21,700 bases of DNA from a virus. Position 1 is the first letter of the stretch; each line of letters begins with the position of its first letter. Location of the stretch: IMG/VR virus record IMGVR_UViG_3300025325_001564, positions 1 to 21,700 of that record; one strand, 5' to 3'. The notes below the pieces were generated by a model, which worked only from the letters and a program-made list of their open reading frames with translations, did not search any database and was not told the origin of the DNA. The position numbers and the translations under genes are program-made. This document shows positions 3,790 to 19,936 of this stretch, piece by piece.

Positions 3790-4373
3790 AGGATTTCCTC
3801 GAGTGTCTTGGTGGCGGCCAGCGCGGTCTTGAGGCTGACTCCGCGGAGTTGTTGTAGTTGTAATAATGCTTCGAGTACCGGGAGATCCCCAAGATGCAGG
3901 ATGTTGCCCCACAGGTTTTCGACTCGCTTGGTCAAGGGGAAATTGAATGGCGACGCGAGCATCTCGGTGATGAACTCCATGTTGTCCGCCGGTACCCCGT
4001 GGGTCAGGGCCACGCGGGCCACGTCCTCGAGGTCTCCCTTGATGACCGAGGGGGCACCGAACGCTACCCCACGGTACACCACGAGTCCGGCGGAACTGAA
4101 CTTGCCTGCGCTATAGTCATCCACGGCAAACCATGCCGTCATGGTCCCGGGGATCGACATCCCGACCTCAAGACCCCATTTTCTATGGGTTGAGCGCACC
4201 AGGGTGGCCATGTGGTAACTCGCGGCCTCCATGGCCATGATGGAGGTTATGGCCGGCCGTCGCAGTTCTTCCAGGCGCTCACCCGAGGGATTCTCCAGGT
4301 AATCCCCGTGGTCGAGAAACCGGTACTCCGGTTTTTCAGGAAGGACGGTTCCCCAGAATGCTCGCCAGAACAT
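3786..4373 (-). CDS. Unrecognised protein upstream of the replicative helicase
   Basis: A 195-residue protein of unknown family. The start at 4373 is preferred over the longer in-frame ATG at 4442 because a GAGGAA site stands about five bases before it, and the longer version would overlap the upstream gene much more deeply. It still overlaps that gene by 38 bases. The N-terminus is aromatic-rich (MFWRAFWGTVLPEKPEYRF). The C-terminal 60 residues look helical and leucine-rich. The stop overlaps the helicase ATG as ATGA. Genes in this position in other phages sometimes encode helicase loaders, but nothing in the sequence supports that here. Confidence 0.72.
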   Translation of the reverse strand: MFWRAFWGTVLPEKPEYRFLDHGDYLENPSGERLEELRRPAITSIMAMEAASYHMATLVRSTHRKWGLEVGMSIPGTMTAWFAVDDYSAGKFSSAGLVVYRGVAFGAPSVIKGDLEDVARVALTHGVPADNMEFITEMLASPFNFPLTKRVENLWGNILHLGDLPVLEALLQLQQLRGVSLKTALAATKTLEEIL

Positions 4374-6182: not shown

Positions 6183-7487
6183 TTACACATCCTTCTGGAC
6201 CCTGTAGCCCGAGACCGTCAGGGATTCCATTGTCTTGTTCAGTGTCCTGATGAAGGCTGGGTGCCGCGCCGCGTAAAACCATGCCTGCGGTTCTTGCCCG
6301 CCTTCACGTTCGAGCCGCCCAACCGTCTGGACCACGGCGTTGCGGTCTTTCATCGGGGTCACGACCCTGAGGGTATCGAGTGATGGTTCACTCAATCCTT
6401 CTTTTCCGAATAGCTCGATTGCCAAGGTAATGGGCTTGGTCCGGAGGTTCGCGAGCCGGACATCTGCCGGAGTTTCCATGATGTTGATCCCGGGGGCAAG
6501 GTCATGCAACCTGTCCCTGAGGTTCAACAATACTTGCCGACGGCTCGAGATGATGAGTTGCTTTCGAAGTTGACGGTATCCTTCTCGAATGTCTGTCTCC
6601 AGGACCCCGAGGTATTGTTCCGATTCGGCCAACTGGGTGACCGCCACGGCGTAGTTGTCGTCCAGCAGCAGGTCATCCATCCGGACGAGCCGGAAGAATA
6701 CCGAGGCCTTGGCCCTGGTGGAGTCTCGATAGAACACGTTCTTACTCAAGGCATGGTAGTAGACGAACGACAGGTAGTCCTCTCGCGCCAGGGTGGCGGA
6801 CAACCCTATGCGGCGCCCTGGGAAAGCATTGGCCACCCCGGAGAACACGGGGGCAGCGAGATGATGCATCTCGTCCATAATAATGCATCCATATATTTCG
6901 CCTAGCATACGCTTGTTAGTTTCATCGAGCGCAAGGACCGACTGGACCAGCGCGACGGTGAAGGGCTGGAGATCAAGATCTCCGGATATCACCCGGCCTA
7001 CCCGTTTGATCGACGTCTCCTTCAGGATCACCTCGGTCCATTGTTCCAGGATGTCTTTCGTGTGGGCCACCACCAGGGTCCAGCGACCGTACTCCACCGC
7101 GGCCTTGAGGGCGATGTACATCTTGCCCTCTCCGCACCGAAGACTCACGATAGCGTCGGACTGCCCTGGGGGCAGGGTCCCGGCGTCCCGGAGGAACTGG
7201 ATGGCATCGACCTGCAACTGGTCCCTCGGGACAATAGCGCAGTGCTCCGCCACCGTGGGGAAATCCTTGGGGCCACGGTAGTGCGTAGGGGTAGAGGCGA
7301 GGTCAAGGTAGTGCCTTGGGGCCACGATGTGGTCGGGGGTCTCGTGGTACAGTTTCACCACCTTGGCCACGGTTGCCCTTCCGGTGGGTAGTACAATATA
7401 CTGTAGGTCGTACATGGCTTTATCGGCCTCGGGGGTACCCCGGGGTAACCAAAGCATTTGATCCAGGAGGATACCCGTGTTCGACAT
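6183..7487 (-). CDS. Superfamily-2 DExH helicase (UvsW/SSL2-like)
   Basis: This 434-residue protein has the SF2 motifs in order. The P-loop variant is SLRCGEGKMYIAL (lysine kept, Met in place of Ser/Thr), followed by VVAHTKDILEQW (Ia), the Walker B DEMHH, GLSATLAR (motif III), and QTVGRLER (motif VI with the arginine finger). Such ATP-driven phage helicases, for example T4 UvsW, act in branch migration and in resolving R-loops or recombination intermediates. That role is inferred from family only. The start is uncertain: ATG 7487 gives the full frame but has no clear ribosome site and lies inside the divergent gene on the other strand, and ATG 7457 is an alternative that would leave a short gap. 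It is the first gene of the leftward operon. Confidence 0.85.
   Translation of the reverse strand: MSNTGILLDQMLWLPRGTPEADKAMYDLQYIVLPTGRATVAKVVKLYHETPDHIVAPRHYLDLASTPTHYRGPKDFPTVAEHCAIVPRDQLQVDAIQFLRDAGTLPPGQSDAIVSLRCGEGKMYIALKAAVEYGRWTLVVAHTKDILEQWTEVILKETSIKRVGRVISGDLDLQPFTVALVQSVLALDETNKRMLGEIYGCIIMDEMHHLAAPVFSGVANAFPGRRIGLSATLAREDYLSFVYYHALSKNVFYRDSTRAKASVFFRLVRMDDLLLDDNYAVAVTQLAESEQYLGVLETDIREGYRQLRKQLIISSRRQVLLNLRDRLHDLAPGINIMETPADVRLANLRTKPITLAIELFGKEGLSEPSLDTLRVVTPMKDRNAVVQTVGRLEREGGQEPQAWFYAARHPAFIRTLNKTMESLTVSGYRVQKDV
7465..7470 (+). promoter_or_regulatory. Shine-Dalgarno site deciding a GTG start
   Basis: AGGAGG stands six bases before the GTG at 7477 and fixes the start of the first plus-strand gene. 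It lies within the antisense of the first codons of the divergent helicase frame, so ribosome loading of one operon and the N-terminus of the other are encoded by the same bases. Confidence 0.85.
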
Positions 7488-9238: not shown

Positions 9239-11098
9239 ATGAGTGTTACGTTTGGTAATCCAGATCGGCCCTCTACGGTTACGGACTTTGTCGCGCGGGG
9301 CGGTACCATTCGGTACCCAAACCCCTTCTTCGACGTGGCCCAGACCTACATGCCGACCACGGTCAAGCACCTGTTTAGTTTCTGCAAGACCTACTATCTT
9401 GGCAACGGGCTGGTCAACAACGTGATCAACCGGATGGCCTACTACCCAGTGACTAAGCTCCGGTACGGCCAGAAGACCAAGAACAAATCCACCGACGATT
9501 ATGTCGAATTGTTTGAAGAGCAACTGAACCTTGAATCCTTCCTCATTGAGGTTGGGGTCAATGTCCTGGTGTTCGGCAACGCCTACATGTCGGTTCACTA
9601 TCCGATCCGCAAGATGCTCACCTGCACGGCGTGCAAGCATGAGATGGCGGCCGACACGGTAAATTACAAATTCGAGCGATTTGAATTCAAGCTTAGTCCT
9701 TGTCCTCGATGCGGTTCCGTAGCGATCGCTACAGTACGGGACATGGCGATAGCATCGTCCAGGAAGATCAACTTGATCCGATGGGACGTGATGGACGTGG
9801 AGGTGTTTTTCAACCAAGCCAACGGGATGTCGTATTACATCTTGTCGGTCCCCATGACCACTGCCAAGGCCATTACCGAGGGCAACACCCTGTTGATCAA
9901 CGATACGCCCCAGGTGTTTATCGATGCGGTCAAGCGAAAGGAGAAGATTCTTCTCAACAGCCAGAATGTATTCCACATGAGGCGCCCGAGCCTCGCGGGC
10001 CAGGACATGGGCCTGGGGATCCCGTTGGTTCTCCCGGCGATGAAAGACCTCTACCTCATGCAGGTGTTGAAGAAGTCCCAAGAGGTCATTGCCCACGAAC
10101 ATATCGTGCCCTTGCGGATCCTCCACCCCGCTACCTCGACAAACGTGGATCCAATCCAAACGATGGATTTGACTTCATGGCAATCGACTGCCCGGTCAGA
10201 GTTGGCCCGTTGGCGGCAAGATCAAAACTATATCCCGATGCTCCCGATGCCCATTGGGTTCCAGTATCTTGGGGGCCAGGGAAAATCACTCCTGTTGACC
10301 AACGAACTCAAGCAGTTGTCCGAGAGCATCGTGATGTCGTTGAACGCTCCAATTGAGTTTGCGTTCGGCGGTTCGACTTACAGTGGCAGTAGCGTGACCC
10401 TCCGGATGCTGGAGAACCAGTTCCTACGCCACCAGAGCCAGCTACTTAAGTTGGTCAAGTTCATCACTTCGTCGATCTGTAATGTCCTTCGGATCGAGCC
10501 CCCTACGGTTGAGTTTACTTCACTCCGGACGGCTGACGATATTCAGCGCAAGAGCATCCTGATGCAGCTGAACCAGATGAATCGAGTTTCCGCCAGGACA
10601 TTGCTCGAGGAGTTCAACCTTGATCCTGCTGATGAAGAGAAGATGATCGAAACGGAGCTTGGGGCTCGTAACCGGATGGAACAAAAGCAATTCCTCCAAA
10701 GCGCTGAGAACCAAGGCAAAGCCCAGGTGATTGGCGCCAGGTACCAAAGCAACGCCCAGATGGAGGCCATGAAATCGACAAGCAGGCTCCAGGGAATGCC
10801 CTCGACCCAGGCGCAAGCCCAGGCGGAACAAGGGGGTGTCCAAGGAAGTCAGCCCGGGGGCCAGCCCGAAGGTCAGGAAGGCCCCATGGTGTTGTCGGAA
10901 AAGCAGATCAAGTCTGCAGTCAAGGAATTGGCAGGGTTGCAGGAAGGGGAACGGGCCCAGGCGCTCCAGCAATTGGGTCAGAAGATTGACCCCCAGAGCC
11001 TCCAGATGATCATTGGGATCCTGGGCCAGAAACCCAATGACAATATGAAACCACTGCCGGATCAGCGGCCGCCTCGGCGCCACAAGGCCCTGGTGTAG
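9239..11098 (+). CDS. Probable portal protein with inserted zinc ribbon
   Basis: The 619-residue product resembles tailed-phage portal proteins, the dodecameric ring through which DNA enters and leaves the head. Supporting features are the length, an N-terminal wing-like part, and a long helical stem region with the typical run of choosing, stacking and loop segments around QLSESIVMSLNAPIEFAFGG and GSSVTLRMLENQFLRHQ (about residues 360-405). A C-terminal helical and glutamine-rich tail (roughly 500-600) follows, with low-complexity Gln/Gly stretches near residues 520-560. Unusually, residues 129-158 contain a zinc-ribbon pattern (C129, C132, C155, C158) inserted in the N-terminal domain. The call rests on these features and on position before baseplate-type genes; no database comparison was possible. 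Confidence 0.72.
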   Translation: MSVTFGNPDRPSTVTDFVARGGTIRYPNPFFDVAQTYMPTTVKHLFSFCKTYYLGNGLVNNVINRMAYYPVTKLRYGQKTKNKSTDDYVELFEEQLNLESFLIEVGVNVLVFGNAYMSVHYPIRKMLTCTACKHEMAADTVNYKFERFEFKLSPCPRCGSVAIATVRDMAIASSRKINLIRWDVMDVEVFFNQANGMSYYILSVPMTTAKAITEGNTLLINDTPQVFIDAVKRKEKILLNSQNVFHMRRPSLAGQDMGLGIPLVLPAMKDLYLMQVLKKSQEVIAHEHIVPLRILHPATSTNVDPIQTMDLTSWQSTARSELARWRQDQNYIPMLPMPIGFQYLGGQGKSLLLTNELKQLSESIVMSLNAPIEFAFGGSTYSGSSVTLRMLENQFLRHQSQLLKLVKFITSSICNVLRIEPPTVEFTSLRTADDIQRKSILMQLNQMNRVSARTLLEEFNLDPADEEKMIETELGARNRMEQKQFLQSAENQGKAQVIGARYQSNAQMEAMKSTSRLQGMPSTQAQAQAEQGGVQGSQPGGQPEGQEGPMVLSEKQIKSAVKELAGLQEGERAQALQQLGQKIDPQSLQMIIGILGQKPNDNMKPLPDQRPPRRHKALV

Positions 11099-11101
11099 CC
11101 G

Positions 11102-14100
11102 GTGGCATACTTTACAACTGAGGAATCCGACGGTCACGCTAAAGACGCGGTAGAACGGGCGATCAAAGAAGTCTTCACCGACATAACCGTGGGGGACAAG
11201 ACCTTGCGGCTTGACGGTGTGCAGGTAGACCAGCGGCTTGACCCCCAGGATTACGAATCTCAGCGCCAAACCAAGTTGAAATCAGGGGTCTGGGGGATGT
11301 CGGTCTCGGGGCTGTTCTCGCTGTTGGATCAAAATGGAAAGGTCAAGGACACGGGTCGGGTCAAGCTCATGACCTTGCCGCAGAAGACTGCTCGCCATAC
11401 CTTCATCTTTGGAGGCCAGGAGTATCAATTCGATACTCAGTTTCGACTCAAGCCAGGGATATACACCCGGGTGACGGACGCGGGAGAGTTTGCCTCCAGG
11501 ATTTCGGCCGAGGGGAAATATTACCGCAATACCGAAATATTCTTTGATCCCCAGACCAAGGTCTACACCCTTGGGGTAGGGACTTCCCACGTACCCCTCG
11601 CGACCCTGTTGGATCTCATGGGGGTGTCGGTCCAAGAGCTTGAACTTGCGGTCGGCAAGGAGGTCGCAACCGCGAACCTGGGGAAGGCGAAGCCCGGGGA
11701 CTACAGCAAGCTCTACAAGGCGTTGTTCGACCTGGACCCTGGACCTAAACCGGATTACCAGGTGATCGTCCAGGCGCTCCATGACAGCAAGCTTGATCCT
11801 GATGCCACCGAGTACACCACGGGCATGAGGTTATCTTCGGTCGACAAGACCGCGATCCTCACGACCATGAAGAAACTGTTCAAGCTGGTCAGAGGGGAGA
11901 CAGAGGAGGATGACCCCAACAGCCTGGTGACCAAGTCGGTCCATTACTACGAGGACTATCTTCGTGAGTGGATCCTGAAACATGGAAGCGAAGTACGGCG
12001 AAAGATTTCCAACAAATTGCCTCACGCCAATAAGGTGGAGGATACGATCTCGACCTCCATCCTGATGCCGGCGATCGGGAAGCTCTTTACCGCGACCCCG
12101 TTGGCTCAACGGCGCGAACAGCACAATGTCGTAGACATTCTGTCGGGTACCGGCAAGACAACGCTCCGGGGTCCCGGGGGGATATCAGACCCCAACATGA
12201 TTCGGGACGACATGAGGACGATCCATTCGTCCCACATGGGGTTCTTGGACCCGATCAAGACACCGGAAGGTTCGACCATCGGGACAACCTTGTTCTTGTC
12301 TTCGTTGGCCAGGAAGCGGGGCAACGAACTGGTCGCGACCTTCATGGACGTGAAGACTGGCAAGGAGGTGGACCTCACGCCCAAACAAGTGTTCGACACC
12401 GTGGTGGCGTTCCCTGACGAGTATGACTTTGAGGTCAAGCCACCGAAGGCAAAATCCAGCAAGGTGATGGCTTCCCACCGGGGTGACGTGCGAGACTACC
12501 CGCCATCCGAGGTTCAATACGTCCCAGCTTCCCAGGCGGGACTGTTCCACCACACGACCAACCTGATCCCTTTTCTTCGATCGAACAACGGCGTCAGGGC
12601 CATGACGGCGTCTCGTCAGATCGAGCAGGCCATCTCCTTGACCCATCGGGAAGCCCCCCTGGTACAACTGAAGTACGGTCGCTCCGATTCGACCGCTGAG
12701 CAGGGGTTCGGTCGCTACCTTGGGGCCAGCCTCAGTCTAGTGGATGGTGAAGTTTCGTCTGTCCGGCAAGGCAAAATCATCGTGAAGGACAAGGCCGGGG
12801 CTTCCTCGGTAGTCAACACGTATCGAGATTTTCCACTCAACAACTCCAAGGGGTACATCAACTCCGAGGCCTTGGTATCCGTGGGGGATAAGGTGAAGAA
12901 GGGTCAGGTGTTGGCCGATACCAATTACACGAAGAACGGGACCCTTGCCCTTGGGACGAACCTTCGGGTCGCGTACGTCCCGTGGAAGGGCCTGTTGTTT
13001 GAGGATGCCTTGGCCATCAGCGAGTCCGCAGCCACCAAGCTGACTAGCGATCATCTCCACCAGTTCGTCGTGGAGTTGGGGGAGAAGTCGATCTCGGGTC
13101 GAGACAAATTCCGTAACTATTTTCCCAACAACATCTCCCATGCCCAGTCCCAGAAATTAGACTCCGACGGCGTCATCACGGTGGGGCAGGAAGTCAGCCG
13201 AGGGGATTACCTCTACGCGGGAATGTTTGAGAAAGAAGTTGATCCGGACAGCGAAGCGATCCTTCGGGTCGGGACCCGGGCGTTCCAATCGTTCGGTGAC
13301 TCCTCGATCCAGTGGGAGAAAGATTACCCCGGGGTCGTGACCGCGGTGGAGAAGTTCGCCAAAAAGTACATCGTCCACGTGAAGACCAAGGAACCGGCCG
13401 TCGAAGGAGACAAGCTGGTTGGGCGCCACGGGAACAAAGGGATCATCAGCAAGATTGTCCCGGATGCCGAGATGCCCCATGACCTCGAGGGCAAGCCATT
13501 CGAAATCCTGATGAACCCCGCGTGTTACGACGACAAGACAGAAGTTTTGACAGAAAATGGGTGGTTGCCTTTCTCACAGGTTAGTCAAGGCGACGTCGTA
13601 GCGTCTATGCATCCAAACGGAGAGTTAGTATATGAAAGTGTGCTGGCAGTTCATCGAAGTTTTTATGTTGGGCCAATGTACAGGATCAAGAATAAAAAAC
13701 TTGACCTTATGGTAACGCCAAACCATAGGATGTACACGCGAAAAGGAGACAGCAATGAGAAATCGCCGTATGAAATCAATGAAGCGAAGAAAATTTTTGG
13801 CCAGCGGCGCTACTACTTAAAGAATTCTGAAAAATGGGTGGGTAGTTCTGCAGAGGTTGTGCGCTTCGGAGAACCTGAAGATCGTGATGGTACTGGGCCA
13901 AAAGCCGACCCAAGAAAACTGGAAATAGCCCCCAGTGAATTTGCCGAGTTCCTAGGAGTGTTCATCGCCGAAGGCTGGGCGTGTAGGCGAGAGGGTGGCA
14001 TCTATGATGTGGGTTTAAGTCAGTCACAGAGATTGAATCCAGATAAATGCGTGGAGATCGAACGCTTTTTGGCTCTATTACCGTGGTCGTTTTCCAGGCG

Positions 14101-17100
14101 TGAAAGAGACAACGGTCAAGTTGAGTGGACTGCACGAAATAGGGAATTATGCCTTTGGCTCATGGAACATGTGGGCACAGGGGCCAAGAACAAACGTATA
14201 CCACGCCAGGCACTGGCGTGGCCGAGCGCTACCTTAGAATTACTGCTTAACGGGCTCATGCTGGGCGATGGATCGACACGAAATTCACCTCAAACGTCCC
14301 ACTACGACAACCGGAGGTATTTTACGGCCTCGAAAGGTCTGGCGGACGACGTGCAGGAACTTGCGCTTAAGCTTGGTGTTTCTGCACAGATAACGACACA
14401 AATTAGTTGTTTCAGAGAAACCGTTACGGATATCTTTGTGGTCAGTTTTTTGAAACGGTCAACACCTTCTGTTAATTGGCCAGGGAAAAAACATGCACAA
14501 GTGGAAAAGTGGGTACATTACGAAGGCGATGTATTCTGCTTGACTGTTCCCAGCGGGCTACTGTATGTTCGTAGGAATGGTGTGCCAGTATGGTCTGGTA
14601 ATTCTGTCGTCGGGCGTGTGAACCTGGGGCAAGTGTACGAGACCCTCGTGGGCAAGGTGGCGGCCAAGACGGGGAACCCCGTGGTGGTGGACAACTTCGC
14701 CTCCGAGCAAGACAACCATAAGTACGTGGCCGACATGTTGAAGAAGCATGGGCTTCAAGATCGCGAAATCGTGGTGGATCCGGTCGACGGACCCACGGAA
14801 AACCCGGTGCTCACGGGCAACCAATACATCTTTAAGTTGACCCATCAGGTTGATAAGAAGCTATCGGCTCGAGGGGCAGTGTCCAAGACCACGGGGGAAA
14901 GGCTCCAGTACACGGGTGACAAGATTCCATCGAAGGGCGGTTCCGAAGGTGGCCAATCGATCGGTATCCTCGACACCTACGCCCTGTTGGCCAACGGGGC
15001 AACGGCGAACCTCAAGGAGATGTTCTCGTACAAGGGGGACGCTCAGAATGCTTTGTTTTGGTCAACATTGAAGAACGGAGGTGTCTTGCCGGCCGCCGAG
15101 GTGCCGTTCACCGCAACCAAGTTTCTCGCGCTCCTGGAAGCCATGGGGGTACATGTCAAGAAGGATGGCAATTCGCTCCAACTGCTCCCCATGACGGATC
15201 GAGACATCGAGACCATGTCGGCCGGCGAATTGAAGAACCCCGGCCAGGCGCTCGACGCGAAGCTCCGGCCGTACCAAGGGGGTATCTTCGATTCCCAACG
15301 GACCGGTGGGCTCCATGGCAAGAAGTACACCCACATGAACCTCCCGTTCCCCGTGGTCAACCCGGTGACGCGGGACGGTGCCGTCAGGCTGTTGGCCTAC
15401 CACCATCCCGATCACGGCGGAACCCTTGTGGACAAGATTCTCGAGGGGCACCTGGGGTTGAATAAGAAAGGCGATATCGTCCCGGTCGTTGAAGCCACGG
15501 TCGTGGGGGGTGCGGCGGTGCAGAACCTGTTGGCCCGGATCGACGTGGACAAGAGCCTCAAGACCGTGGAACAGGATCTCGAGACCGCGGCACCGTCGAA
15601 TGTCAACACGATCAACAAGACCCGCAAGTACCTCAAGGCCTTGAAGGAGTTGGGCTACACGGCCGACCAGGCCTACTGCCTTACCAAATTTCCCGTGCTG
15701 CCACCGTTGTTCCGCCCCATCGTGGTGAATAAGAACGGGACCATCAGCAACGAGGATATCAATGAACTGTATCGTAAGCTCGGGGAGACGATCGAGGCGG
15801 TGAACCAAGGGGATAAGAAGTTACCTCCCGAAATGATGGCCCAGCGGTCTGCCGCGATCCAGGACATGGTCGACGCTGTCGCGATCTCGGGGTACAGCGC
15901 CCACAACCGAACGATGAAGGGGGTGATGCAGTTGATCTCGGGCACGAGCCCGAAGTACGGATTCTACCAGAAGAAGGTATTGAAGCGTCGGCAAGACCTC
16001 AGCGCCCGCAGCACCATCGTGCCGAACCCCGAGCTCGACGTCGACACCATCGAGGTGCCGGACAAGGCCCTATGGGAACTGTTCGGCCCGTTCGTCACCC
16101 GGTCGCTCGTGCAGTCGGGATATCCGGTCGCCAAGGCGGCGGAGCATGTGAAGGACAAGACCGAGGTAGCCAAGACCGCGCTGCTCAACGAGCTAAAGGA
16201 TCGTCCCGTCCTGATGAAACGAGATCCTGTGCTCCACAAGTTTGGTATCCAGGCGTTCCATGCGAAATCTTCGTCCGGCAACACGATTCGGATTCCCCCG
16301 AGCGTGACGACGGGATATGGGGCAGATTTCGATGGGGACCAAATTTTGGACACTGTTGTTGTATTTGCAACGGATTCGGTTTTGTGCCAGCATATACTGG
16401 AACAAGGAGCCGAAGACATGACTGCACGTTTGAAAACTGTGTTACCGACGATGGACATCCACGGGATGGTGTTCCTGTTAGACTTGCAGGATTTTCCTCA
16501 CGGTGAATTGATTGGAGCTAAGCAAGGAGAAAAGGGTCCCATCGAGTTCTACGCGGTGCCCAATGGAGTTTACGTTCTAGCCTTAGATGAGACTGTCGGC
16601 GCACTGGTGTGGTCACCCGTGACCGTATGGTCGAAGCATCTGGATCGTGAAATAGAGATCATCACACTGGCATCTGGACGACAGATCGTATCGGACGACG
16701 ATCCCCGTGCGGTCTACGGAATGGCCGCTGGTACGTTACTTTACGGACGCTTTCAACCTGCTACCGCAGTCGAGTCTCGGGTGCTGGTTCCTCGAGGCCA
16801 GCGCTTAAGCATCCCTGAAATACTACACAATGCATTCACAGGGGCGGAGAACTCTAATAGGCCTCGATCACACCAAGTATTTCCGGAAGTTGTACTGACA
16901 GAGAAACTCGGTTATTTCCTTGGGGCTGCCGCTGGCGATGGATGGGTTTCTTCTATAGATCAGATCTGCCTAGCATCGATAGATGATGATGTGGTACTCC
17001 GGTTTGCCGAAGGCCTCGCGGAGATGATGCAGACAGGGCTTGTGCCTTTTAGTCTCGCGCACGTCACCACATCCTACGGTGAAAGCCGAAGAGCCTCGTT

Positions 17101-19936
17101 TTCTGCGAGTAGTGCTGGCAAAGTTCTCGCGGGATGGATTGGAAAAGGTGCGGAGAACAAACACTTGCCTCCGTTCTTTTTGACATCTCCATTGGAATTT
17201 AGAAGGGGCTTGTTCGCGGGGTTGATGGATACCGACGGATCGATTTCGGTTTCTACAGCTAAAAGCAAGCCTCAGTTGATGTCCAATTTTACGAGCATCA
17301 GTTTGCGCCTGGTTCGTGAGGTACTGTTATTAGCGGCGTCACTAGGAGTACGTGGACGTATCACGGCTTTTAAGTCGTCCTCTACAGGTAAGCCCTCATG
17401 GATAGTTAGCTTCTCAAACTACGATGTCAAGAGGTGGGGCGGCGCAGGTATGGCGTGCTCACATAAACTGGAGCTATTACGTTCAATCGAGATAGGGATT
17501 ACCCCATCTCTCGTGCGCCACGATCTTGTTCCTATCTCTGTTTCCTTGGCCCAGCACATCTACAAAAGTATTCCTATGGAACGCAGCGCCCCGCAGGCTC
17601 GCAAGAATGCGTATTTCAACTTTAACAAGGCAGCGAAAGAAGGCTATGTAACACGAGATGCTGCTGAACGAGTCACATCTTACGTGTCAATAAATCAGAT
17701 TGTGGCCCACCCCGATGGCGCTCTGTGGTGGAACATCGTCCAGCAGACGGATGTTACGTGGGACATGGTGGAATCCGTGGAGGTCACGGGTATTCGGGAG
17801 ACGGGTTACGACCTCACGGTCCCGGGGCACGAGACCTTTATGAACGTCGAGGGTGTCGTGCTGTCCAACACCGTATCGGTCTACGTCCCGGCCACCGAGG
17901 CGGCGAAGGAAGAGGCCAAGGGTCTCGTCCCGAGCCGGAACCTCTTCGGCGTGAAGTCCGGATCCCTGATGCACAAGCCCCAGCATGAGCAGCAGTTGGG
18001 GCTTTACCTGTTGACCGAGGAGGGGAGGAACACAAACCAGGTGTTCCAAAGTTTCGACAAATTGATGGAAGCGTATGGCCGTCGACAGGTTCGCCTCCAG
18101 GACGTCGTGACCTTTGGGGGGCGCAAGACGACCTTAGGACGCCTCCTGGTGGCCAACGCGATCCCCATGGGTCGTCTACATGACGACTGGTACCAGAAGA
18201 TCGCGTACGACCGAAAATTCCGTCTGGACAAACATCAGGTCAACAGCCTGATGGTCCAGGTGGGCAAGACCCAGCCGGCCGATTTCCCCCAGTTCCTCAC
18301 GACCATGCGGCAACTGGGGGACAAGGCTGCCTTTACCCTCGGGGCGTCGGTCAGCATGGCGGATCTCAAGCCGATGAAAGATTTGGCCAAGCATCTTCCC
18401 AACGCCACGGACTCGGTCCGCCGGATCGAACAGTACAGCACGGCCCGTGATAAGGTCGAGCACGAGGCCAAGCGCCGGCTCTCGGCCCAGGACAACGGGT
18501 TGTACAAGACCGTTGTCTCGGGTGCCCGGGGGACATTCGACCAGTTGAAGCAGATTGTCTTATCGCCTGGCATGATTTCAACGGAGGCGGGCCGCGTGGC
18601 CCCCAAGCCGATCAACCGGTCGTATGCCGAAGGCTTGAAACTCGGGGACTACTGGACCACACTCCACGGGGCTCGGCTTGGCATGATCTCGAAGTCCCGC
18701 GGGACCGCGCTCCCGGGGTACCTGTCCCGCCAGATCATCAGCACGGTGGCAGATGCCCGGGTTACCACGGAAGATTGCCAGACGAGCCAGGGGATATACG
18801 AGGATGTGAAGAGTCGTGACATCATCGGGCGTTACCTGGCCAAGGCCCAGAAGATCGGGAACAAGTCAGTAGCTAAGGACACTCTTGTGGATGGCACGGT
18901 CGTGATGTCGGCCCGCAACGCAGGGGTATCGAAACTGTTGGTCAGGACTCCGTTGAAATGTGAAGCTCATGATGGCATCTGTGCCAAGTGTTTTGGCCGG
19001 TGGCACGACGGTAACGATCCGTCCGTCGGTACCAACATCGGGGTGATCAGTGGCCAGTCCCTTGGGGAACCCACGACCCAGTTGTCCATGAAGCTGTTTC
19101 ATGAAGGCGGCGTGGCATCCAAGGCTTCGAAACTCGTGGATCAGTTCGCCGTGGCCGAGACCCTGCTGAAAGCGCCGCTTCGTCTTAAGGACGAGGCCGT
19201 CCTGAGCCAGGTGACCGGTACCGTGACATCGATCAACAAGACCGCGACCGGATGGAAGGTCTTCGTTGGGACCAAGGAACAATTTGTCCCGGCGTCCAGG
19301 ACCCTGGAGGTTAAGGTTGGGACCAAGGTTCAACAAGGGGACAAGATTTCGTCTGGTCAGGTGAATGTCCACCAGCTCGCCAGCCTCGCGGGCATTGGGG
19401 CCGCGCAGAACCACATGGTAGGGTCTCTCCACGAACTCTACGGACCCCTTGGGGTTGACAAGCGCCACATCGAAACGGTGGTGCGCCACATGACTGACCT
19501 CGGGGTGGTGGATCAGGCCGACGGTGCCTCGGGGTTCGGGCGTGGTGATGTCGTCTCGATGGCCAAGATCGAGGCGTTCAACCGCCGCTACATGGCGCCC
19601 GACTGGGCCATTGGAAAAAAACTGGCGGAGAAGTACCTCAAGTATGGCCGTGGCACCGAGGTGACGGACCTGGTGGCCAAGGACCTCAAGGATCACAATA
19701 TCAATAGGGTCAAGATTGAAGATGGCGGGGCTGTCAAGGCCAACCCAATGATCCGGGGGGTCAACACCATGCCCTTGATCCGGACGGATGATTGGGCAGC
19801 CAAGATGTCGTTCGAGCGACTCCGCGGCACCATGGAGACCGGGGTCCTGACGGCCGCGAAGGCCGACATAGCGGGTCGGTGGCCCCTGCCGTCCATCGGG
19901 TTCGGCAAGATTCAAGATCCCAAAACAGCAGGGTAA
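11102..19936 (+). CDS. Fused beta-beta' RNA polymerase with two inteins
   Basis: The 2944-residue precursor would be spliced to about 2074 residues. Beta landmarks are: a GPGGISDP segment followed by IHSSHMGFLDPIKTPEG (374-390), LRVAYVPWKGLLFEDALAIS, GRHGNKG (774-780), MNP interrupted by intein 1 and continued as SVVGRVNLGQ, and a C-terminal clamp segment GGSEGGQSIGILDTYAL. Beta' begins near residue 1364 (DIETMSAGELKNP). It carries the catalytic ADFDGD (Asp1742, 1744, 1746) interrupted by intein 2, a bridge helix (GARLGMISKSRG), zinc-site cysteines C2559, C2620, C2627 and C2630, and a trigger loop with GQSLGEPTTQ and MKLFH (H2667). The N-terminal beta' zinc ribbon is missing. The GTG start lies three bases after the portal stop, with no good ribosome site. 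No alpha or sigma gene is seen nearby. Confidence 0.95.
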   Translation: MAYFTTEESDGHAKDAVERAIKEVFTDITVGDKTLRLDGVQVDQRLDPQDYESQRQTKLKSGVWGMSVSGLFSLLDQNGKVKDTGRVKLMTLPQKTARHTFIFGGQEYQFDTQFRLKPGIYTRVTDAGEFASRISAEGKYYRNTEIFFDPQTKVYTLGVGTSHVPLATLLDLMGVSVQELELAVGKEVATANLGKAKPGDYSKLYKALFDLDPGPKPDYQVIVQALHDSKLDPDATEYTTGMRLSSVDKTAILTTMKKLFKLVRGETEEDDPNSLVTKSVHYYEDYLREWILKHGSEVRRKISNKLPHANKVEDTISTSILMPAIGKLFTATPLAQRREQHNVVDILSGTGKTTLRGPGGISDPNMIRDDMRTIHSSHMGFLDPIKTPEGSTIGTTLFLSSLARKRGNELVATFMDVKTGKEVDLTPKQVFDTVVAFPDEYDFEVKPPKAKSSKVMASHRGDVRDYPPSEVQYVPASQAGLFHHTTNLIPFLRSNNGVRAMTASRQIEQAISLTHREAPLVQLKYGRSDSTAEQGFGRYLGASLSLVDGEVSSVRQGKIIVKDKAGASSVVNTYRDFPLNNSKGYINSEALVSVGDKVKKGQVLADTNYTKNGTLALGTNLRVAYVPWKGLLFEDALAISESAATKLTSDHLHQFVVELGEKSISGRDKFRNYFPNNISHAQSQKLDSDGVITVGQEVSRGDYLYAGMFEKEVDPDSEAILRVGTRAFQSFGDSSIQWEKDYPGVVTAVEKFAKKYIVHVKTKEPAVEGDKLVGRHGNKGIISKIVPDAEMPHDLEGKPFEILMNPACYDDKTEVLTENGWLPFSQVSQGDVVASMHPNGELVYESVLAVHRSFYVGPMYRIKNKKLDLMVTPNHRMYTRKGDSNEKSPYEINEAKKIFGQRRYYLKNSEKWVGSSAEVVRFGEPEDRDGTGPKADPRKLEIAPSEFAEFLGVFIAEGWACRREGGIYDVGLSQSQRLNPDKCVEIERFLALLPWSFSRRERDNGQVEWTARNRELCLWLMEHVGTGAKNKRIPRQALAWPSATLELLLNGLMLGDGSTRNSPQTSHYDNRRYFTASKGLADDVQELALKLGVSAQITTQISCFRETVTDIFVVSFLKRSTPSVNWPGKKHAQVEKWVHYEGDVFCLTVPSGLLYVRRNGVPVWSGNSVVGRVNLGQVYETLVGKVAAKTGNPVVVDNFASEQDNHKYVADMLKKHGLQDREIVVDPVDGPTENPVLTGNQYIFKLTHQVDKKLSARGAVSKTTGERLQYTGDKIPSKGGSEGGQSIGILDTYALLANGATANLKEMFSYKGDAQNALFWSTLKNGGVLPAAEVPFTATKFLALLEAMGVHVKKDGNSLQLLPMTDRDIETMSAGELKNPGQALDAKLRPYQGGIFDSQRTGGLHGKKYTHMNLPFPVVNPVTRDGAVRLLAYHHPDHGGTLVDKILEGHLGLNKKGDIVPVVEATVVGGAAVQNLLARIDVDKSLKTVEQDLETAAPSNVNTINKTRKYLKALKELGYTADQAYCLTKFPVLPPLFRPIVVNKNGTISNEDINELYRKLGETIEAVNQGDKKLPPEMMAQRSAAIQDMVDAVAISGYSAHNRTMKGVMQLISGTSPKYGFYQKKVLKRRQDLSARSTIVPNPELDVDTIEVPDKALWELFGPFVTRSLVQSGYPVAKAAEHVKDKTEVAKTALLNELKDRPVLMKRDPVLHKFGIQAFHAKSSSGNTIRIPPSVTTGYGADFDGDQILDTVVVFATDSVLCQHILEQGAEDMTARLKTVLPTMDIHGMVFLLDLQDFPHGELIGAKQGEKGPIEFYAVPNGVYVLALDETVGALVWSPVTVWSKHLDREIEIITLASGRQIVSDDDPRAVYGMAAGTLLYGRFQPATAVESRVLVPRGQRLSIPEILHNAFTGAENSNRPRSHQVFPEVVLTEKLGYFLGAAAGDGWVSSIDQICLASIDDDVVLRFAEGLAEMMQTGLVPFSLAHVTTSYGESRRASFSASSAGKVLAGWIGKGAENKHLPPFFLTSPLEFRRGLFAGLMDTDGSISVSTAKSKPQLMSNFTSISLRLVREVLLLAASLGVRGRITAFKSSSTGKPSWIVSFSNYDVKRWGGAGMACSHKLELLRSIEIGITPSLVRHDLVPISVSLAQHIYKSIPMERSAPQARKNAYFNFNKAAKEGYVTRDAAERVTSYVSINQIVAHPDGALWWNIVQQTDVTWDMVESVEVTGIRETGYDLTVPGHETFMNVEGVVLSNTVSVYVPATEAAKEEAKGLVPSRNLFGVKSGSLMHKPQHEQQLGLYLLTEEGRNTNQVFQSFDKLMEAYGRRQVRLQDVVTFGGRKTTLGRLLVANAIPMGRLHDDWYQKIAYDRKFRLDKHQVNSLMVQVGKTQPADFPQFLTTMRQLGDKAAFTLGASVSMADLKPMKDLAKHLPNATDSVRRIEQYSTARDKVEHEAKRRLSAQDNGLYKTVVSGARGTFDQLKQIVLSPGMISTEAGRVAPKPINRSYAEGLKLGDYWTTLHGARLGMISKSRGTALPGYLSRQIISTVADARVTTEDCQTSQGIYEDVKSRDIIGRYLAKAQKIGNKSVAKDTLVDGTVVMSARNAGVSKLLVRTPLKCEAHDGICAKCFGRWHDGNDPSVGTNIGVISGQSLGEPTTQLSMKLFHEGGVASKASKLVDQFAVAETLLKAPLRLKDEAVLSQVTGTVTSINKTATGWKVFVGTKEQFVPASRTLEVKVGTKVQQGDKISSGQVNVHQLASLAGIGAAQNHMVGSLHELYGPLGVDKRHIETVVRHMTDLGVVDQADGASGFGRGDVVSMAKIEAFNRRYMAPDWAIGKKLAEKYLKYGRGTEVTDLVAKDLKDHNINRVKIEDGGAVKANPMIRGVNTMPLIRTDDWAAKMSFERLRGTMETGVLTAAKADIAGRWPLPSIGFGKIQDPKTAG
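13523..14602 (+). mobile_element. Intein 1 (360 aa) with LAGLIDADG endonuclease, in the beta part
   Basis: Residues 808-1167 of the polymerase precursor. The intein begins with Cys808 and ends with Asn1167 followed by Ser1168. Removal restores MNPA joined to SVVGRVNLGQ, matching the beta segment LNPLGVPSRMNIGQ. Block A reads CYDDKTEVLTENGW. Block B has T872 and H875 in MVTPNHR, and block F is FCLTVPSGLLYVRRNG. The residue before Asn is Gly instead of the usual His. Two LAGLIDADG motifs, LGVFIAEGW (E957) and LLLNGLMLGDGS (D1056), are intact, so the homing endonuclease may be active. Local composition is much more AT-rich than the exteins: hand counts gave 70 of 180 GC at 13621-13800 and 71 of 120 at 13381-13500, which supports recent acquisition. 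Confidence 0.93.
16340..17869 (+). mobile_element. Intein 2 (510 aa), atypical Gln-start, with LAGLIDADG endonuclease
   Basis: Residues 1747-2256 of the precursor. Alignment of the exteins (ADFDGD joined to TVSVYVP, against DFDGDQMAVHVP of bacterial beta') places the first intein residue at Gln1747, the last at Asn2256 and Thr2257 as the +1 residue. Block B reads GRQIVSDDDP: Ser1864 and Asp1867 occupy the usual Thr and His positions. Block F is GYDLTVPGHETF (D2237, H2243), and Ser2255 precedes the terminal Asn. LAGLIDADG motifs are LGYFLGAAAGDGW (D1946) and LFAGLMDTDGSI (D2043 or D2045), apparently intact. About 50 extra residues separate the N-terminus from block B compared with intein 1. 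Most of the intein is lower in GC than its exteins, but the last ~170 bases match the surrounding gene. Confidence 0.9.

Follow-up and report, generated by a model that had tools for sequence, protein, structure and literature searches.

Can an intein that lacks the residues on which protein splicing usually relies still restore the active centre of an enzyme? This question is raised by a 21,700-nucleotide stretch of viral DNA (positions 1 to 21,700 of IMG/VR record IMGVR_UViG_3300025325_001564; hereafter the window), in which a phage gene for a fused beta-beta' RNA polymerase is interrupted, directly after its catalytic DFDGD motif, by an element of 510 residues, intein 2. The comparisons reported here place intein 2 in a family carried by 27 distinct phages (this one and 26 others) which, judged from its residues, fits none of the three class definitions of inteins, and which very probably splices without using residue 1.

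Insertion of intein 2 into the catalytic loop

The features on which the argument relies are the following (a slash marks a splice junction throughout).

11102..19936, plus strand: phage gene for the fused beta-beta' RNA polymerase, 2944 codons, its open frame interrupted by two inteins
16322..16339, plus strand: ADFDGD, end of the N-extein; the catalytic Asp triad occupies -5, -3 and -1
16340..17869, plus strand: intein 2, Q1 to N510, directly after the catalytic DFDGD
16340..16363, plus strand: block A, QILDTVVV; no conserved nucleophile at residue 1
16628..16639, plus strand: WSKH; neither Ser98 nor His100 varies among the aligned members
16691..16720, plus strand: block B, SDDDPRAVYG; Asp121 is B:10, Arg123 is B:12
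16910..16945, plus strand: first LAGLIDADG motif of the homing endonuclease (GYFLGAAAGDGW), read by eye
17207..17239, plus strand: second LAGLIDADG motif (GLFAGLMDTDG), within the Pfam LAGLIDADG_3 match
17798..17839, plus strand: block F, ETGYDLTVPGHETF; Glu487, Asp491 (F:4) and, at the usual His position, Glu498
17855..17869, plus strand: block G, VVLSN; Ser509 is G:6, Asn510 is G:7
17870..17872, plus strand: Thr+1, first residue of the C-extein

The open reading frame (ORF) of the polymerase has Pfam matches above the cut-off to Rpb2_6, Rpb2_3, Rpb1_2, Rpb1_4 and Rpb1_5, and one below it to Rpb1_1. In its translation, the junctions of intein 2 read GYGADFDGD/QILDTVVV ... VVLSN/TVSVYVPATEAAKEEA, and excision of exactly Q1 to N510 yields ADFDGDTVSVYVP, equal in length to the intein-free homologues ADFDGDQMAVHVP and ADFDGDTVAIHLP. 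Since this exact 510-residue deletion restores the catalytic loop to its length in the homologues, the junctions are forced, as a preliminary description of the locus had argued for Gln1 and Thr+1 from the extein alignment; the coordinates it gave, 16340-17869, and its Ser1864, Asp1867, Asp2237 and Asn2256 (counted from 11102, Q1 being ORF residue 1747) are also correct. Nor is intein 2 an assembly slip, because further contigs carry the same sequence, three of them whole at 100% and a fourth over its last 135 residues.

Intein 2 presents the features that define an intein, namely a HINT fold, an in-frame insert and the N510/T junction, and the Thr+1 found in 23 of 23 aligned members of its family sets it apart from bacterial intein-like domains (BIL), which have no +1 nucleophile. 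The Pfam Intein_splicing profile matched 11 of the 11 family members scanned at E up to 0.01, intein 2 itself scoring 28.2 bits against a curated cut-off of 35.8, and in an alignment with the Ssp DnaB intein Glu498 falls opposite the F-block His. As for removal at the RNA level, no Rfam match was found at E up to 0.1 in positions 15900-18300. An insert that stayed in place immediately behind DFDGD would presumably destroy the active site of the polymerase.

A family with a fixed set of non-standard residues

Ordinary searches retrieved little. With intein 2 as a single protein, the search for close relatives returned only the phage's own contigs and one distant endonuclease match, and a C-extein search only these same contigs. 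Among cultured phage records, 138 matched intein 2, and the 40 listed cover 24-30% of the intein, in its endonuclease part. Two loci in viral contigs (matching loci are labelled by L-numbers) served as further queries: L188 and L227 each gave no matches in cultured phage records, and L188 none in plasmids. Bacterial and archaeal genomes yielded no relative with one alignment (A2) and 40 relatives with another (A7), for which the loci fetched had no DFDGD or DDD[PE]R in forward frames; two LSNT matches among them lay outside any such context.

The family emerged from block B. A scan for the peptide DDDPRAVYG detected 20 contigs, 17 of them besides this phage's own three; 15 of these 17 had, upstream and in the same frame, DFDGD or a close variant with the insert directly after it, and the remaining two, L172 and L180, are split. 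A profile built from ten contigs plus intein 2, combined with the patterns Q[IT][FVI][TS]DDDP and DLTVPGxET, gave 32 loci, from which own-phage copies (L182, L183, L192) and exact duplicates (L196, L212) were left out. L207 is without its N-half and L206 without its C-half, and the N-junction, block B and the C-junction are each readable in 26 members. In all 26 with a readable N-junction, the intein directly follows DFDGD or a close variant. Pairwise identity among the 23 full-length aligned members ranges from 28 to 76% (median 37%).

Residue 1 is nearly free in this family. It is Gln in eight aligned members, Glu in three, Cys, Ala, Asp, Phe and Tyr in two each, Lys and Leu in one each, and it is Tyr, Leu and Asp in the split L190, the split L208 and the half L206, respectively. 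Cys thus occupies it in 2 of 26 members and Ser or Thr in none, leaving 24 of 26 with none of the three. Its entropy is 2.84 bits, against a splicing-domain median of 1.54, which makes it the 16th most variable of 129 splicing-domain positions. By contrast with Gln1, which only 8 of 23 members share, Asp at B:10 is found in 26 of the 26 distinct members with a readable block B; the preliminary description had proposed all three of Gln1, Asp B:10 and Thr+1 as features to look for in homologues. Eight members (L186, L190, L193, L199, L200, L203, L209, L211) match neither block-B search pattern and were therefore not selected for this Asp.

The family block B reads [S/T/A]DDD[P/E]R, with Ser or Thr at B:7 except for Ala in L186, and the end LSN/T is present in 26 of 26 members with a readable C-junction. 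Invariant in 23 of 23 aligned members are Ser98, His100, Asp119-121, Arg123, Glu487, Asp491, Glu498, Leu508-Ser509-Asn510 and Thr+1, though for Asp491, Thr493, Glu498 and Thr499 the search accounts for part of the invariance, since DLTVPG and ET of block F lie inside one of its patterns. The Glu in place of the F-block His and the DDDxR motif had escaped the preliminary description. In the exteins, Asp(-1) and Asp(-5) are found in 23 of 23 aligned members and Asp(-3) in 22; in L186 the catalytic motif, just before position 3863, reads MDFNGD, the middle Asp being replaced by Asn next to a family intein. The aligned family has no conserved Cys column (9 of 23 in the best one), which argues against a Cys of the class 3 kind. 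In the first LAGLIDADG motif, Gly191, Gly195, Gly199, Asp200, Gly201 and Trp202 are invariant in 11 members.

AlphaFold2 models computed with the 23-row alignment reached a predicted local distance difference test score (pLDDT) of 79.6 and a predicted template-modelling score (pTM) of 0.80 for intein 2, and 80.6 and 0.71 with L188 as query. The intein 2 model aligns to inteins over residues 22-530, and for both models the alignment to solved inteins covers the splicing and the endonuclease parts; against 2cw7, Z was 23.9 (3.7 Å, 396 aligned residues) for intein 2 and 23.6 (3.9 Å, 399 aligned) for L188. In nearly all solved-intein rows, model residue 23 (intein residue 3) pairs with residue 5 or its equivalent, a hint that the arm at the N-terminus may be some two residues shorter than usual. 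Separately, the idea that the N-intein mimics the polymerase strand after DFDGD (a profile match through position 36) was not supported: the best z was 1.68, 27 of 400 shuffles scored as high, and this was one of five offsets tried.

Inteins with standard residues at the same site

Other phages carry more conventional inteins at this very site. L135 and L160 use the same DFDGD/ and /T junctions and are class 1-like, with Ser1, HisB:10, an HN end and Thr+1. Two further same-site inteins, L226 and L227, came from a profile of the endonuclease domain only (pattern GLxDTDG[SG][IV]), which detected at least 462 relatives. Among the best 80, which were kept, 13 are contigs of this phage or of known family members, and 15 of the remaining 67 loci were inspected in full, including these two. 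The accompanying screen of all loci collected up to then for DFDGD with a plausible C-junction, which picked out L226 and L227, missed L199 and L211 and returned the non-inteins L018, L032, L057 and L075.

L226 and L227 have Cys1, SDDHS and SEDHS as block B, Trp at the Glu498 position and the ends YD/T and WD/T, and they share a DFPR...VP.G insert with the intein-2 family. By eye, CYYGQVLV of L227 fits the family pattern x-Q-h-G-x-V; MAFFT did not place it so, and the correspondence of first residues rests on the start right after DFDGD and the pattern x-x-x-G-x-V. Between these two inteins and the family, residue 1, B:10, B:12, the F-block position and G:6-G:7 all differ together, and no intermediate between the Cys1/His and x1/Asp types was found among the loci screened. 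That L226 and L227 keep both Cys1 and HisB:10 suggests a concerted switch, in which the family would have lost nucleophile and His jointly.

In a tree of 25 family rows with four outgroups, the family label needs two changes and a single origin appears in 19% of bootstraps; a single-clade constraint is not rejected (p-AU 0.474, approximately unbiased test), and monophyly of the family is possible. With hhalign, the match to eight class 1-like inteins was confined to the endonuclease. MAFFT placed blocks B and G wrongly when intein 2 was aligned to L135 and L160, and that alignment was not used. We also considered intein 2 as a decayed element, one block A residue short relative to L135 and L160, and dropped this idea as other contigs share its register.

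These relatives bear on the placement of the N-junction. Class 1 chemistry through an N-terminal nucleophile, the junction lying elsewhere, could draw on Cys16 in the N-terminal region and on the Cys1 of 2 of 26 members. However, any other placement puts extra residues into the catalytic loop, no conserved Cys column lies near the N-terminus, and the same-site inteins with Cys1 or Ser1 also begin right after DFDGD. We find this explanation hardly credible, and a junction at a Cys or Ser elsewhere, which the preliminary description had named as one finding that would overturn its proposal, is not supported.

A split intein also occurs at the same polymerase site, on one 69.7 kb contig. Its L138 part (6185-6262) shows DFDGD/S and a 26-residue N-intein followed by a stop, and its L161 part (1132-1821), a separate ORF, has a TDDH block B and the end YD/T. 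In L132, a 129-residue N-part is followed by a stop, and the C-extein was not found in its contig.

Comparison with the known intein classes

Class 1 inteins have Cys, Ser or Thr at residue 1, where intein 2 has Gln and 24 of 26 members have none of these. HisB:10, the most conserved intein residue (PMC4031507), is not an absolute criterion for this class, and the family has Asp there throughout. Class 2 comprised, as of 2014, Mja KlbA and its orthologues, with Ala1, Cys+1 and a required HisB:10 (PMC4031507). Residue 1 of these inteins, as in the family, is none of Cys, Ser and Thr, and they have Asp F:4, Ser G:6 and Asn G:7 (PMC4031507), of which Asp F:4 and Ser G:6 each occur in 23 of 23 family members; unlike them, the family accepts nearly any residue 1 (Ala in 2 of 23), has Thr+1 and Asp B:10 in 23 of 23 and a Glu in block F, and resides in an RNA polymerase. 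Class 3 is defined by the WCT motif (Trp B:12, Cys F:4, Thr G:5; PMC5222942). It resembles the family in not needing a nucleophile at residue 1, in its proposed phage origin and in Thr or Ser at +1 (PMC5222942; PMC4031507), but the family has Arg, Asp and Leu at the three WCT positions in 23 of 23 members.

The claim that intein 2 belongs neither to standard class 1 nor to class 3 is thereby upheld, and Asp2237, the commonest type of residue at F:4 (PMC4031507), had rightly been used only to exclude class 3. The four departures from canonical chemistry that had been listed fare unequally. Gln1 and Asp B:10 stand. Thr is a normal residue at +1 (PMC4031507), and the Ser at B:7 is ordinary too, being present in the same-site HisB:10 inteins L132, L160, L226 and L227. 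Ser at G:6 is less usual, though not without precedent: a residue other than His occupies this position in about 5% of functional inteins, and class 2 has Ser (PMC4031507).

The same-site class 1-like inteins (L135 and L160; L226 and L227; the split L138/L161) share with the family host gene, site, Thr+1 and Asp F:4, whereas they keep Ser1 or Cys1 together with HisB:10 and end in HN/T (L135, L160) or [WY]D/T (L226, L227, L161) rather than SN/T. Absence of HisB:10 has a functional precedent, as a 2014 review lists two inteins without it, a pseudogene and the functional Tko CDC21-1 intein, which uses Lys58 (PMC4031507); that intein and its orthologues, like the family, do without this His (PMC4031507; PMC6333167). 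In one evolved form of the DnaB intein, the role of HisB:10 can be taken over by bulk at -1 (PMC6333167). Inteins tolerate many active-site combinations, several splicing without the block B or penultimate His (PMC7664689), and in mycobacteriophages the penultimate His is frequently missing from class 1 inteins (PMC5050341).

Is the family functional?

Two members, L190 and L208/L212 (the latter being a pair of contigs whose intein sequence is identical), have a polymerase gene that is broken inside the intein. The N-gene encodes DFDGD, 25 or 21 further residues and a stop, and the C-gene has a possible ATG start preceded by GGGAGG or AAGGA, both Shine-Dalgarno-like; such a retained split would make most sense if the halves were joined by protein trans-splicing. 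For L202/L204, the only close pair, non-synonymous (dN) and synonymous (dS) divergence of the intein are 0.18 and 1.26 (dN/dS about 0.14), the corresponding values being 0.12 and 1.0 for its N-splicing part and 0.08 and 0.78 for its C-splicing part. Because the same combination is kept in 27 phages, two of them split, and dN/dS is low in this one pair, the family is probably functional in splicing, as had been supposed for intein 2 itself. The conserved non-standard residues and the split genes together point to a probably different splicing chemistry.

Could the intein instead no longer splice, or only cleave, the polymerase gene being dead or working in pieces? There is no conserved nucleophile at residue 1 and no His at B:10, at the usual block F position or at G:6, and of the two inteins that the 2014 review lists without HisB:10, one was a degraded pseudogene (PMC4031507). 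In addition, 11 members (L184, L187, L190, L191, L200, L201, L202, L205, L207, L208, L211) have a stop in the beta' frame 85-91 residues beyond the intein, and beta' seems to be broken a second time there, and a polymerase in pieces is not absurd. Nonetheless, the persistence of one non-standard set across the family, the low dN/dS, the open frame of 2944 codons, the two split members and the expected ruin of the active site by an unspliced insert make this explanation improbable. A comparable beta' break in L135 is followed by a further polymerase ORF.

Possible splicing mechanisms

With only a little more than even confidence, we favour a functional, mobile phage intein outside the three classes, in which Thr+1 would attack the Asp(-1) bond directly within a carboxylate-rich active site. 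Thr+1 is taken to form the branched ester because Thr+1 and Asn are the standard reactive groups that are left. In this scheme, Thr+1 would play the part that Cys+1 has in class 2 and attack the peptide bond between Asp(-1) and x1, giving the branched ester in one step; Asp F:4 may help the Thr hydroxyl, and the DDDxR loop of block B would hold and protonate the scissile bond in place of Thr/His. Cyclization of Asn510, with Ser509 and Glu498 assisting, would come next, and after an O-to-N shift the product would be ADFDGD-TVSVYVP, the active polymerase.

Several points weigh against this scheme. In the class 2 inteins known so far, HisB:10 is required and the attacking residue is Cys+1, which is more nucleophilic than Thr (PMC4031507; PMC5222942). 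The tree does not show one origin, model pLDDT is below 50 at the N-junction (residues 1-23), and a single pair was close enough for dN/dS, with 20-codon extein flanks too short as a yardstick. Conserved hydroxyls (Ser98, Thr483, Thr493, Thr499, Ser509) could act instead, and any role of its own for the invariant Asp(-1) is inseparable from the polymerase's need for that Asp.

The hydroxyls lead to a second mechanism, which we regard as unlikely: an internal Ser or Thr (Ser98, Ser/Thr118, Thr483, Thr493, Thr499 or Ser509) would attack first and form a branched ester in the manner of Cys F:4 in class 3, the acyl group then passing to Thr+1. Several Ser and Thr residues outside the standard set are indeed invariant in 23 of 23 members, and residue 1 is as unconstrained as in class 3. 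On the other hand, there is no WCT motif, Ser98 corresponds to His in the related L226 and L186 has Ala at B:7; a hydroxyl may also be invariant for structural reasons, and for Thr493 and Thr499 the search pattern itself contributes to the invariance.

Intein fusions are more prone to N-terminal cleavage when residue -1 is Asp. Somewhat less likely again is a route in which Asp(-1) would attack its own carbonyl to form a cyclic anhydride, from which Thr+1 would take the acyl group, perhaps helped by a metal held by the carboxylates of DxDxD and DDD; the intein would thus borrow the active site of its host. The constancy of Asp(-1), Asp(-5) and Asp119-121, with Asp(-3) in 22 of 23, fits such a route, as does the confinement of all 26 members with a readable N-junction to this one site, and the N-arm predicted to be about two residues shorter in both model alignments could bring DxDxD nearer. 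Yet polymerase function fixes the Asp triad anyway, homing explains the single site, model confidence is low at the junction and L186 has Asn at -3. A shade more doubtful still is the broader proposal of a fourth intein class, without any intein nucleophile, in which the catalytic carboxylates of the host polymerase would start splicing, Asp(-1) activating or attacking the N-junction, possibly with a metal between DxDxD and the DDDxR loop.

Origin and neighbouring inteins

GC content at third codon positions (GC3) is about 0.5 in both inteins of the polymerase gene, against about 0.8 in the adjoining exteins, a contrast fitting horizontal acquisition of the inteins. The low-GC3 block extends from about 16193 to 17702 and is offset from intein 2 (16340-17869): the last 55 or so intein codons are extein-like in usage and about 50 N-extein codons intein-like, the N-side shift being less well supported. 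It looks as if intein 2 were recombinant.

The other intein of the gene gives the context.

13523..14602, plus strand: intein 1, 360 amino acids, Cys1...WSGN/S

It starts as NPA/CYDDKTEV, has VTPNH as block B and ends in VWSGN/S; it is class 1-like, with a penultimate Gly and a GC3 of about 0.46. In a related phage, an ORF at L134 (2698-4026), apparently the counterpart of window ORF 9239-11098, has an intein of its own (Cys1, SAN/S). Finally, L293 (Fredinandcohnia onubensis) is a 517-residue bacterial ORF with an endonuclease domain like that of intein 2, in which no recognizable intein C-junction was read.

Significance

No description of the intein-2 family was found in a library of open-licence papers, and 'not described' is to be taken as provisional; a phage lineage with a multi-subunit polymerase has been reported, in a paper from which the word intein is absent (PMC7481178). 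Single losses of the block B or penultimate His are not new (PMC7664689), which tempers the novelty of any one change. The established mechanisms that do without an N-terminal nucleophile number just two (PMC4031507), and a whole family in which this nucleophile is missing along with all three histidines would be new. The Cys1/His inteins at the same site are the natural comparison, with which activation of the scissile amide is testable by residue swaps. Indifference to residue 1 and the absence of a conserved Cys would suit cysteine-free protein ligation, for which the natural split, with an N-part of 21-25 residues, is a convenient format.
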